From an uncultured Sphingomonas sp. (lineage in GTDB: Bacteria; Pseudomonadota; Alphaproteobacteria; Sphingomonadales; Sphingomonadaceae): a DNA stretch of 43,199 nucleotides. Position 1 is the first letter of the stretch. Each line of letters begins with the position of its first letter. Both the position numbers and the translations under genes were made by a program. The notes beneath the pieces are model-generated. The model had not been told where the DNA came from. It searched no databases and saw only the letters and a program-made list of their open reading frames with translations. Below, piece by piece: positions 32,134 to 36,152 of the stretch. The stretch lies in NCBI GenBank assembly GCA_913776045.1, contig CAJYOI010000033.1, positions 1 to 43,199 of the forward strand, written 5' to 3'.

Positions 32134-33084
32134 ATGAGCGCCCCCACCACCGACGCCTCGCACCCGGGCTGGACTCTTGTCATCCACGGCGGCGCCGGTG
32201 GCATGCGGCGCGATACGCTGACCCCGGCGCAGGACGCCGACGCGCGCGCCGGGCTGAACGCCGCGCTCGATGCCGGGTCGGCCGTGCTGGCGGGCGGCGG
32301 CAGCGCGCTCGATGCGGTCGAGGCGGCGGTGCGGGTGCTGGAGGACGATCCCGCCTTCAACGCCGGGCGCGGCGCATGCTTCACCTATGACGGTACGAAC
32401 GAGCTCGACGCCGCGATCATGGACGGCCGCACCCGTGCCGCGGGCGCCGTGGCGGGCGTCACCGCGACCAAGAACCCGGTGAGCCTGGCGCGCCGGGTGA
32501 TGGAGGACAGCCCGCACGTCCTCCTCGCCGGCAAGGGCGCCGATGCCTTTTCGCGCGATCGCGGCCTGGAACAGGTCGAGCCCGACTGGTTCGCGACCCC
32601 CGAACGTCGTACGCAGCTCGACACGATGAAGGCCAGCTCGGCCAGCGCCTTCGATGTCGACATGAAATACGGCACGGTCGGCGCGGTCGCGCGCGATCGC
32701 CACGGCCATGTCGCGGCGGCGACCTCGACCGGTGGGGTGACCGGCAAGCGCTGGGGCCGCGTCGGCGATTCGCCGCTGATCGGGGCGGGCACCTATGCCG
32801 ACGACCGTGCCGGCGCGGTCAGCGCGACGGGCTCCGGCGAATTCTTCATCCGCGAAGGCGTCGCACACGAAATCTGCGCCCGTGTGCGGCTGGCGGGCGA
32901 CACGCTGCAGACCGCCGGCGACACGGTGATGGCCAATGTGCGAGCGCTGGGCGGCACCGGCGGCGTCATCCTGACCGGCCCGGCGGGCGAGATCGCGTGG
33001 AGCTTCACGACGCCGGGCATGTACCGCGGCCGCGTGTCGGCAAGCGGGTCGCGGACGGTGGCGATCTACGCTGACGAGGGGTGA
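32134..33084 (+). CDS. Isoaspartyl peptidase / plant-type L-asparaginase (Ntn hydrolase)
   Basis: This 316-residue protein has HGGAGGM near residue 18, the oxyanion region AGRGACFTYDGTNELDAAIMDG, and the autocleavage site at Gly180-Thr181 in DMKYGTVGAVARD. It should split into an alpha chain of 180 and a beta chain of 136 residues with Thr181 as nucleophile. Downstream VAAATSTGG and GAGTYADD are the usual pocket residues. It hydrolyses isoaspartyl dipeptides and asparagine in the cytoplasm. GGAG precedes the ATG at good spacing. No signal peptide is seen. It may be co-transcribed with the acyltransferase before it. Confidence 0.95.
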   Translation: MSAPTTDASHPGWTLVIHGGAGGMRRDTLTPAQDADARAGLNAALDAGSAVLAGGGSALDAVEAAVRVLEDDPAFNAGRGACFTYDGTNELDAAIMDGRTRAAGAVAGVTATKNPVSLARRVMEDSPHVLLAGKGADAFSRDRGLEQVEPDWFATPERRTQLDTMKASSASAFDVDMKYGTVGAVARDRHGHVAAATSTGGVTGKRWGRVGDSPLIGAGTYADDRAGAVSATGSGEFFIREGVAHEICARVRLAGDTLQTAGDTVMANVRALGGTGGVILTGPAGEIAWSFTTPGMYRGRVSASGSRTVAIYADEG

Positions 33085-33118: not shown

Positions 33119-33625
33119 ATGCTCCTCGCCGCACTGCTCGCCACCGTCACCGTCGCCTGCCCGACCGAACGCGCGCAGTATCGGTTGAGCAGCGACGCGA
33201 GCGTCACCGCCGAATTCTTCCCCGTCCCGCGCACCGCCGATTGGGCGGGCGGCGTCGCGCTGCGCGTCCGGTTCGGCAAGACGGGCCGGTCCTACTGGTT
33301 TCTCCCGTGGCAGGGCGGCACCGATGGCAGGACCAACATGGCCTGGGTTCGCGAGCGTGGCGATCGGATCGCCGGCCAGTCTGTCCGCGAGGATATCGAG
33401 ATCGTCACGACCGACGCCACTTACAGGATCGACGAAGCCGTGCCCACTGCCGGACGGGCAGCACCCAGCCACATGCTGCTCCTGGGCCTGCGTACGCTGA
33501 CTTGGTACAGAACGCCGAACGCCCACCGGGACGATGCACGACGCGGCTTCTTCGACCGGACCGGCTGCCGCCCCGCGACCGTCCGCGCCTATCGCCCGTC
33601 GATCGACTTTCCGCCGATCCCCTGA
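33119..33625 (+). CDS. Secreted or membrane-anchored protein of unknown function
   Basis: This 168-residue protein has a short hydrophobic N terminus (LLAALLATVTVACPTE) that could be a weak signal peptide, with a Cys where a lipobox might end although the -3 residue is not typical. The rest is beta-rich: AQYRLSSDASVTAEFF, GVALRVRFGKTGRSYWFLPW, IEIVTTDATYRIDEA. Two more Cys-poor strands and FFDRTGCRPATVRAYRPS end it. It starts 34 bases after the isoaspartyl peptidase gene. I do not recognise the family. Confidence 0.72.
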   Translation: MLLAALLATVTVACPTERAQYRLSSDASVTAEFFPVPRTADWAGGVALRVRFGKTGRSYWFLPWQGGTDGRTNMAWVRERGDRIAGQSVREDIEIVTTDATYRIDEAVPTAGRAAPSHMLLLGLRTLTWYRTPNAHRDDARRGFFDRTGCRPATVRAYRPSIDFPPIP

Positions 33626-33743: not shown

Positions 33744-33989
33744 ATGACTACATCCGTTGCCGACATCGCACCCGCCAGCCATCCGCGCTGGCACGACCTG
33801 CTATCGGGGCGCATTCACGCGACCTATCGCTGCCTGGCGCTGCGCATCCTGATGATCCGGCTGGTCGATGCGTATCAGCGCAGCGTCGCCAACCGGATGG
33901 CGGTGATAGAGGAATTGCGCGCCTTCTTTCGCGACAATCTGCGCTTTGCCGGCGACGACTACCGCGCGATTTTCGAAGGAGGCAAGTGA
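33744..33989 (+). CDS. Small helical protein paired with the FIST-like gene, unknown function
   Basis: This 81-residue protein has HPRWHDLLSGRIHATYRCLAL, then LRILMIRLVDAYQRSVANRM and AVIEELRAFFRDNLRF, all predicted amphipathic helices with aromatic and basic residues. There is no signal or membrane segment. Its TGA stop overlaps the ATG of the next gene by one base (TGATG) after the in-gene GGAGGCAAG ribosome-binding site, a strong sign of a fixed two-gene unit. An upstream extension of the frame to 33534 lacks support. I do not recognise the family; a partner or adaptor for the next protein is inference. Confidence 0.75.
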   Translation: MTTSVADIAPASHPRWHDLLSGRIHATYRCLALRILMIRLVDAYQRSVANRMAVIEELRAFFRDNLRFAGDDYRAIFEGGK

Positions 33990-35017
33990 TGCGGGCCCTG
34001 CGCGCGACCGCCCGTCGATCCCTTCACAGCGTAGAGGCCGTCACCGCGATGATCGCAGGCGGCGCGTCGCTGATCCTGGCGGGCGAAGAGACGCTGCTTG
34101 CCAGCCTGCCGCGCGGGCGGTGGATCGGCGGGACCATCCCCTATTTCATGACGGCGGAGGCCGGTGGCGCGGTCGATCGGGCGCAGATCTACGTCCAGAC
34201 GCTGCCCGAGGGCGCAAGCGTCGCGTGGCAGGGTGTGCTCGACCGCGCAAGCCTGCCCGACCTGGCCGCCACGTCGGGGCCAGACAACGGCTACACCATC
34301 CTGCTGCTGCCTTCGCAGAGCGATGTCCACCGCGACTTTGCGCTGAACGGACAGAGCTGGCCCAACCTGTTCCGCCGCCCGCTCGCCGGCTGGGTGACGG
34401 GCGTGTTGCTCGACCGGCTGGGCATCGACAGCCCCAAGGTGTTCGATGGCGCGAGCGGGACGGTCAGCGGCGATGCCGCGGTCGTCATGCACGTCGCGCT
34501 GCCCGACGATGCCTATGCCCGGATCGACAACGTCAACCTGTTCGAACAGGATAGCGGCCCCGCGTTGACGTTCGGCGACGATGGCGATTCGACTGGCTTT
34601 ACGGTCGAATGGGTGCACGTCGACGGCGTGCGCACACGCTTGGTCGATCACATCGCCGCACATGGCATCGACATCCGCCTGCCGCTGGTCGCCGATTATA
34701 ACGGCGCGATGATCAACGTCGCGACCGCGGGCATCGACGAGGCGACCGGCGAGGTCACCTTCTTCGCGCCGGTCTTCCCCGGCATGACCTATCGCTTCGC
34801 GCGGCCGGTCGAGGATTACGAACGACAATTCGCCGAAAAGATCGCCGACGCCACTGGCGAATTCGCGTTCAGCTGCAACTGCATCCTGAATTTCAATTAT
34901 GCCAAGCTGGAAGGCAAGCACACCGGGTCGCTGACCGGGCCGATGTCGTTTGGCGAGATTGCGTACATGCTGATGACGCAAACTTTGGTGTATCTGACGA
35001 TCGAGCGCGACACATAA
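33989..35017 (+). CDS. FIST-like sensory-domain protein, divergent
   Basis: This 342-residue soluble protein appears to follow the order of FIST domains. It opens with SVEAVTAMIAGGASLILAGEE then LPRGRWIGGTIPYFM (FIST N-like). It continues with a swap of strands around VSGDAAVVMHVALPDD. GIDEATGEVTFFAPVFPGMT (about 248-267) recalls 'DEETG...F...P.G'. The end, FAFSCNC (292-298) and GPMSFGEIAYMLMTQTLVYL, recalls the FIST C pattern 'FSCNGR...GFFGFGEIG...L....L'. FIST domains are predicted ligand sensors usually linked to kinases or other output domains; here there is none. It is coupled to the small gene before it. The assignment is by eye; another conserved unknown family is possible. Confidence 0.7.
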   Translation: MRALRATARRSLHSVEAVTAMIAGGASLILAGEETLLASLPRGRWIGGTIPYFMTAEAGGAVDRAQIYVQTLPEGASVAWQGVLDRASLPDLAATSGPDNGYTILLLPSQSDVHRDFALNGQSWPNLFRRPLAGWVTGVLLDRLGIDSPKVFDGASGTVSGDAAVVMHVALPDDAYARIDNVNLFEQDSGPALTFGDDGDSTGFTVEWVHVDGVRTRLVDHIAAHGIDIRLPLVADYNGAMINVATAGIDEATGEVTFFAPVFPGMTYRFARPVEDYERQFAEKIADATGEFAFSCNCILNFNYAKLEGKHTGSLTGPMSFGEIAYMLMTQTLVYLTIERDT

Positions 35018-35285: not shown

Positions 35286-36152
35286 ATGATCCGCAAGCTT
35301 TCCGCGCTGCTCGCGCTTATCGCCTCGCTCTTCGCCCTGCCGGCCCAGGCCTATTGGGAATATGGCCATGAGACGGTCGCTGCGGTCGCCTGGGCGAACG
35401 TCAGCCCGGCGACCCGGGCCAAGGTCGCGGCATTGCTGCGTCAGCAGAGATTGCTCGAAACGCCGACCTGTCCTGCGGCCACGATCGAGCAGGCGAGCGT
35501 CTGGGCCGACTGCGTCAAGCCGCTGGGCGAGCGGTTCAGCTATGCCTATTCCTGGCACTATCAGAATGTGAACGTGTGCAAGCCGTTCGACCTGAAGTCC
35601 GCCTGCAAGGACGGCAATTGCGTGTCCGCGCAGATCGAACGCGACGTGAAGCTGCTGAAGGATTCGAAGGTCCCGGCGCGCGAGAAGCTGATGGCGCTCG
35701 TCTTCCTGATCCATTTCGTCGGCGACCTGCATCAGCCGCTCCATGCCGGGGACCGCGGCGATCTCGGCGGCAACCGGGCGAAGGCGGATTACGGGATGTA
35801 CGGCCCCGATCGGCTCAACCTCCATTCGATCTGGGACGGGTATCTGGCCGAGCGTGCGATCTCGACCCCGCCGCCGGTCGTCCGCGCTTACCCGGCGGCC
35901 GAGCGGGCGAGCATTCAGGCTGGGACGGTCGAGGACTGGAGCCGCGATAGCTGGCAGGTCGCCAAGAATGCCTATGCGACCGCGATGGGCGGTGACGGCT
36001 GCGGGCCGGTGCCCGCGCGCTCGAAACTGGACGAAGCGACCATCGCCAAGCTGGTCGAACCGGCGCGCGAGCAGGTCATCAAGGGCGGGCTGCGGCTTGC
36101 GCGGTTGCTGGACGAGGCGTTTGCCGGCGGGGCGGCGGCGGCTGCCAAGTAA
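35286..36152 (+). CDS. Secreted S1/P1-type nuclease
   Basis: This 288-residue protein has a Sec signal peptide (LSALLALIASLFALPAQA, cut near residue 22) and the three-zinc site of S1/P1 nucleases: Trp24 and His28 (YWEYGHET), Asp75 (SVWADCVK), His91 (WHYQN), His143, Asp147 and His153 (LIHFVGDLHQPLHAGD), and His180 and Asp184 (LHSIWDGYL). It should degrade single-stranded DNA and RNA in the periplasm or outside, for nutrient salvage. Six cysteines suggest disulfides. The expected Zn-binding Trp is one residue in from the best signal-peptidase site. Confidence 0.95.
   Translation: MIRKLSALLALIASLFALPAQAYWEYGHETVAAVAWANVSPATRAKVAALLRQQRLLETPTCPAATIEQASVWADCVKPLGERFSYAYSWHYQNVNVCKPFDLKSACKDGNCVSAQIERDVKLLKDSKVPAREKLMALVFLIHFVGDLHQPLHAGDRGDLGGNRAKADYGMYGPDRLNLHSIWDGYLAERAISTPPPVVRAYPAAERASIQAGTVEDWSRDSWQVAKNAYATAMGGDGCGPVPARSKLDEATIAKLVEPAREQVIKGGLRLARLLDEAFAGGAAAAAK

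Follow-up and report, generated by a model that had tools for sequence, protein, structure and literature searches.

In a 43,199-nucleotide stretch of DNA from an uncultured Sphingomonas sp. (contig CAJYOI010000033.1; the whole stretch is referred to as the window), two overlapping genes encode a small three-helix protein, here called the module, and a stand-alone DUF6976 protein with a predicted FIST-like fold. Of 68 distinct DUF6976 loci, drawn from several phyla, 67 have the module upstream. We infer sensing, binding and an adaptor role, and hold with somewhat better than even confidence that the two proteins work together in the cytosol as a portable sensing unit made up of a FIST-fold sensor and a dedicated helical adaptor. 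The observations behind this are a match of predicted folds, the conservation of the pairing, modules that are fused or triplicated, and signalling neighbours in several lineages.

The first-pass annotation of this locus had located both open reading frames (ORFs) correctly, along with their coupling through one shared base (TGATG), and the adjacency that it proposed to check is kept in nearly all loci: 63 of 64 in a first set and 4 of 4 further loci (L159-L162). The first set held 68 distinct DUF6976 entries, of which four edge-truncated duplicates were set aside (L054, L056, L065 and L066, judged by genome and spacing). Pairing required a module on the same strand, no more than 1500 bases upstream of DUF6976. 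Also outside the count are a fragmentary copy in genome G174 (L004, L007, L008), two sub-cutoff matches (L005, L006) and a second DUF6976 copy in G747, which three modules adjoin. For G654 the pairing relies on a weak local match (7e-5) that the whole-genome module search (E up to 0.001) missed, and the module match of L019 is also weak (6e-6). The sole exception to pairing is a DUF6976-PAS-PAS fusion (L021, 5989-7953, + strand), for which no module was found. Several Cys residues are visible by eye in the C-terminal tail of this fusion.

DUF6976 was identified in 33 of 144 genomes of the family of the Cellvibrio genome G689 (here Cellvibrionaceae), and the module in the same 33. In the window's genus, taken as Sphingomonas on the basis of shared loci, 21 of 295 genomes encode DUF6976, and the module occurs in 20 of these and in no others; no module without DUF6976 was found among the 439 genomes of the two groups. 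A separate check of 16 genomes recovered the module in 14, those without it being G690 (the PAS fusion) and G174 (interrupted DUF6976). In G174 (contig C1, about 2205174-2205837) the DUF6976 gene is in pieces: the first part is in another frame and holds a TGA, profile positions 201-272 are unmatched, and no module was detected.

The small protein had been described as helical and of no placed family, and we agree: no match was obtained in Pfam, NCBIfam, PADLOC or PHROGs, and the predicted model is all-helical (helices 14-20, 31-46 and 48-78; mean pLDDT 87.5). A comparison of this model with the PDB gave nothing useful (best E 6.0 among five matches). An earlier start in the same open frame, at 33534, would be possible, and the start at 33744 is favoured by the starts in relatives. 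Related modules lie directly upstream of DUF6976 in other phyla. A profile built from non-Sphingomonas modules only matches the window's small ORF at 6e-9, and a Sphingomonas-group profile matches several distant modules (e.g., L026, at 6e-9). Because these reciprocal profiles match across clades, the family is not a one-clade artefact; the Sphingomonas-only profile misses the modules of L003, L023 and L028. The match of the non-Sphingomonas profile to the window module, taken with the two pairing counts, argues for pairing beyond chance. Within the open literature library searched, the helical partner of DUF6976 appears to be undescribed: searches of the FIST/NosP literature found no small partner of these proteins, and no paper was found under the name DUF6976.

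Module architecture varies between lineages. In Cellvibrionaceae, one ORF of ~415 amino acids encodes three modules; they follow a conserved N-terminal region that takes up roughly the first 150 residues of the multi-module ORFs L107-L120. A tree of the modules from 33 distinct triple ORFs separates the first, second and third copies into groups of their own (31, 33 and 29 distinct tips, with support of 0.95, 0.89 and 0.92, respectively), and the triplication is therefore old and position-specific. In L025 the N-terminal region is joined to a single module, the protein on an Ideonella plasmid contains two modules, and an additional module gene lies on the opposite strand in L022. An ISL3-transposase-like identity for the multi-module N-terminal region was considered; the matches are below cut-off (Zn_ribbon_ISL3 in 1 of 13, E 0.011; HTH_Tnp_ISL3 in 1 of 13, E 0.093) and provide a hint only.

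The large protein clearly belongs to DUF6976 (PF22396), which it matches at full length (414.6 bits against a cut-off of 27; residues 14-339 on profile positions 2-321 of 321). DUF6976 is a Pfam family of unknown function whose small partner is not in Pfam. The by-eye FIST assignment of the first-pass annotation did not survive at the level of Pfam families: FIST_C (PF10442) is sub-threshold (20.3 bits against a gathering score of 28.5), and FIST_N (PF08495) is not among the two families reported at E up to 10, most weak matches being filtered. Comparison of folds and profiles does back a FIST-like fold. The model is predicted to have the triple-repeat FIST fold, and its closest structural match (VIA-align) is the FIST domain of FBXO22 (8ua6, 8ua3, 8s7d, 8s7e), nearly full length at 10-12% identity; in FBXO22 this is the substrate-binding part of a eukaryotic E3 ligase. 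Foldseek returned no match below E 0.001 among viral models, and PDB sequence searches with the DUF6976 protein, a FIST_C fragment and alignments A3 and A6 found no FIST chain.

Like FIST proteins such as NosP, DUF6976 retains Cys, GE and QT residues in the FIST_C region. Cys296 and Cys298 are invariant in the 22 sequences of DUF6976 alignment A3 (Cys296 is not kept in L003), and Cys298 aligns with a Cys invariant in 24 FIST proteins. Gly322 and Glu323 match invariant FIST residues, and Gln331 a nearly invariant one. Unlike FIST proteins, DUF6976 scores below the FIST_C cut-off, has no FIST_N match and lacks the His that is invariant in the 24 FIST proteins (H374 of the first), which is Leu, Met, Val or Phe in DUF6976 rows and Met (residue 329) in the window protein. 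DUF6976 also differs from FIST/NosP in being accompanied by the helical module, whether or not a kinase gene is nearby.

The Pfam scan shows no kinase, GGDEF or methyl-accepting domain in the large protein, as had been noted before. The pair and its coupling stand, whereas the absence of an output domain is not the novelty it was taken for. Many FIST proteins likewise occur alone and exert their effect on other proteins, and stand-alone FIST sensors that act in trans, such as NosP, have been described (PMC12570481, PMC8846402). Given this precedent, the novelty lies in the helical module and its near-absolute linkage.

DUF6976 was over cut-off in 3 of 398 Pseudomonadota genomes, 2 of 247 genomes in the phylum of a Desulfuromonadales relative and 2 of 190 in the family of a Lachnospiraceae relative (seed genome included each time), and on 3 of 72,556 plasmid records. 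FIST domains, a common type of bacterial sensor domain, passed the cut-off in 99 of 200 Pseudomonadota genomes. By its patchy distribution, the pair looks like an accessory, transferable unit. A gene for a methyl-accepting chemotaxis protein (MCP) lies directly upstream of it in G460 and G461 (by Pfam) and in G462 (the same protein by eye), preceded in G461 by a receiver-like ORF (by eye); G460 has a PAS kinase and a receiver-GerE regulator farther upstream. CheR and CheB genes follow the pair in G114, two hybrid kinase genes precede it in L028, a PAS-GGDEF-EAL gene follows it on the Ideonella plasmid, and two HD-domain proteins are encoded ~2-5 kb from the copy in G1049. The recurrence of the pair in widely different bacteria, some of which carry chemotaxis or signalling genes beside it, makes it probable that the two genes form a small, portable unit for sensing. 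The hybrid histidine kinase directly upstream in L028 (2279-5728, + strand; 1150 amino acids) contains receiver, DegV and Hpt domains, and a separate DegV gene occurs just downstream of DUF6976 in L117.

In the mechanism that we propose, the DUF6976 protein would be a divergent triple-repeat FIST-fold receptor that responds to a chemical state or a small ligand. Its helical partner would dock on the FIST fold as a dedicated adaptor and relay the signal to a host-dependent output (a chemoreceptor or CheR-CheB, a histidine kinase, or a cyclic di-GMP enzyme). In proteins that carry an N-terminal region ahead of the module, this region itself would be the output; for the window unit, beside which no output gene was recognised, the partner may be encoded elsewhere.

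Several results weigh against this proposal. The FIST likeness of the DUF6976 model emerged only in the second look with VIA-align: plain Foldseek found no match below E 0.001 in the PDB, and hhalign of DUF6976 against FIST gave a probability of just 37%, covering FIST_C only. The FIST domain of FBXO22 has no obvious ligand pocket (PMC11185555). The signalling-neighbour observations are raw counts, and Pfam recognised no signalling gene among the scanned neighbours of the window pair. In the main Sphingomonas group (eight loci; 93 of 163 listed ORFs scanned, 25 of 58 families listed), the only signal-transduction family among those listed is Lrp/AsnC regulators (two members). The listed neighbours are metabolic or housekeeping, with proline dehydrogenase-aldehyde dehydrogenase, alanine racemase and DAO at three members each of the 93. 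The 44 neighbours at nine Cellvibrionaceae loci include one GGDEF-EAL and seven acetaldehyde dehydrogenases (25 of 43 families listed).

The Sphingomonas metabolic genes are counted over L010, L011, L126 and related loci taken together. In 13 of the 16 Cellvibrionaceae loci that were gene-called (L020, L107-L117, L119), the pair has an acetaldehyde dehydrogenase-like gene upstream; among eight loci listed for orientation, this gene is divergent in seven and shares the strand of the pair in L112. The AcetDehyd-dimer family was confirmed for L110 and for seven scanned neighbours. No signalling neighbour was noticed, partly by eye, in lineages including the main Sphingomonas group, G471, G654, L017, L160 and L162.

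The Sphingomonas and Cellvibrionaceae scans slightly weaken the sensor interpretation and slightly strengthen one in which DUF6976 is an enzyme of the chorismatase/cyanuric acid hydrolase (YjgF-derived) type, or a regulator of aldehyde or amino-acid catabolism, with the module as a small structural subunit. Members of that fold are enzymes, unlike the proposed sensor, and we know of no module partner for them; we regard this alternative as unlikely, if credible. A NosP-like haem or nitric-oxide sensor acting on a kinase encoded elsewhere, with the module as accessory, would share the predicted fold and recall the stand-alone FIST NosP proteins that regulate neighbouring kinases, and hybrid kinases occur beside L028 and near the Ideonella copy. 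However, a haem site using the invariant FIST His would be absent from DUF6976. No histidine kinase gene was recognised beside the window pair (its scanned neighbours are Asparaginase_2, the matchless ORF 33119-33625 directly upstream, and an S1/P1 nuclease), kinase neighbours being found only in other lineages such as L028, and we judge this reading improbable. Less probable still is a toxin-antitoxin-like pair in which the small helical protein, made immediately ahead of a larger toxin, would be the antitoxin: the overlapping gene order, the patchy occurrence (21 of 295 genomes of the genus) and three plasmid copies would suit it, but the modules are triplicated within a larger conserved protein in Cellvibrionaceae, PAS-fused DUF6976 occurs without a module, copies adjoin chemoreceptor genes, the predicted fold is FIST-like, and neither protein has a PADLOC match at E up to 0.1. 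PHROGs likewise gave no match for the DUF6976 protein.

Table 1. Positions in the window of the gene pair, its sequence elements and flanking genes.
Feature	Positions	Strand	Basis
Small three-helix module protein, 81 amino acids	33744..33989	+	ORF; conserved DUF6976 partner; no family in four libraries
DUF6976 protein, 342 amino acids, stand-alone, FIST-like fold predicted	33989..35017	+	ORF, Pfam, fold and profile comparison
TGATG stop/start overlap of the two genes	33987..33991	+	Sequence
AAGGAGG, Shine-Dalgarno-like, 5' of the DUF6976 ATG	33976..33982	+	Sequence
Codons of Cys296-Asn297-Cys298	34874..34882	+	Alignments, FIST comparison
Codons of residues 322-332 (GEIAYMLMTQT), counterpart of FIST_C (F/Y)GE...HNQT motif	34952..34984	+	Alignments
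Asparaginase_2 gene, upstream of the pair	32134-33084	+	Pfam; ordinary neighbour
S1/P1 nuclease gene, downstream of the pair	35286-36152	+	Pfam; ordinary neighbour

A bolder version of the sensor-adaptor proposal, which we consider speculative and doubtful, is that three modules serve each pseudo-threefold FIST-fold sensor, one per repeat, as a new type of adaptor with varied outputs and possibly with electrophile sensing. If so, single-gene versions would supply three copies of the small protein per sensor, and the Cellvibrionaceae protein would be a fusion of exactly three copies, each specific to its position, behind a possibly DNA-binding N-terminal region. In different phyla, this one combination of sensor and adaptor would be plugged into chemotaxis, two-component or cyclic di-GMP outputs. 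Possible aldehyde or electrophile sensing via the conserved Cys pair would fit the aldehyde-metabolism genes adjoining the pair in two groups. Cys326 of FBXO22 is aldehyde-reactive (PMC13370883). The PDB sequence searches returned no FIST chain through which this residue could be placed on DUF6976, and electrophile sensing stands only as a lead.

How FIST domains bind ligands and pass on signals is little understood (PMC8846402). A divergent FIST-fold family with a dedicated partner would be a compact system in which to test signal transfer from the FIST fold. The pairing suggests a role both for a Pfam family of unknown function and for a module absent from the libraries searched.
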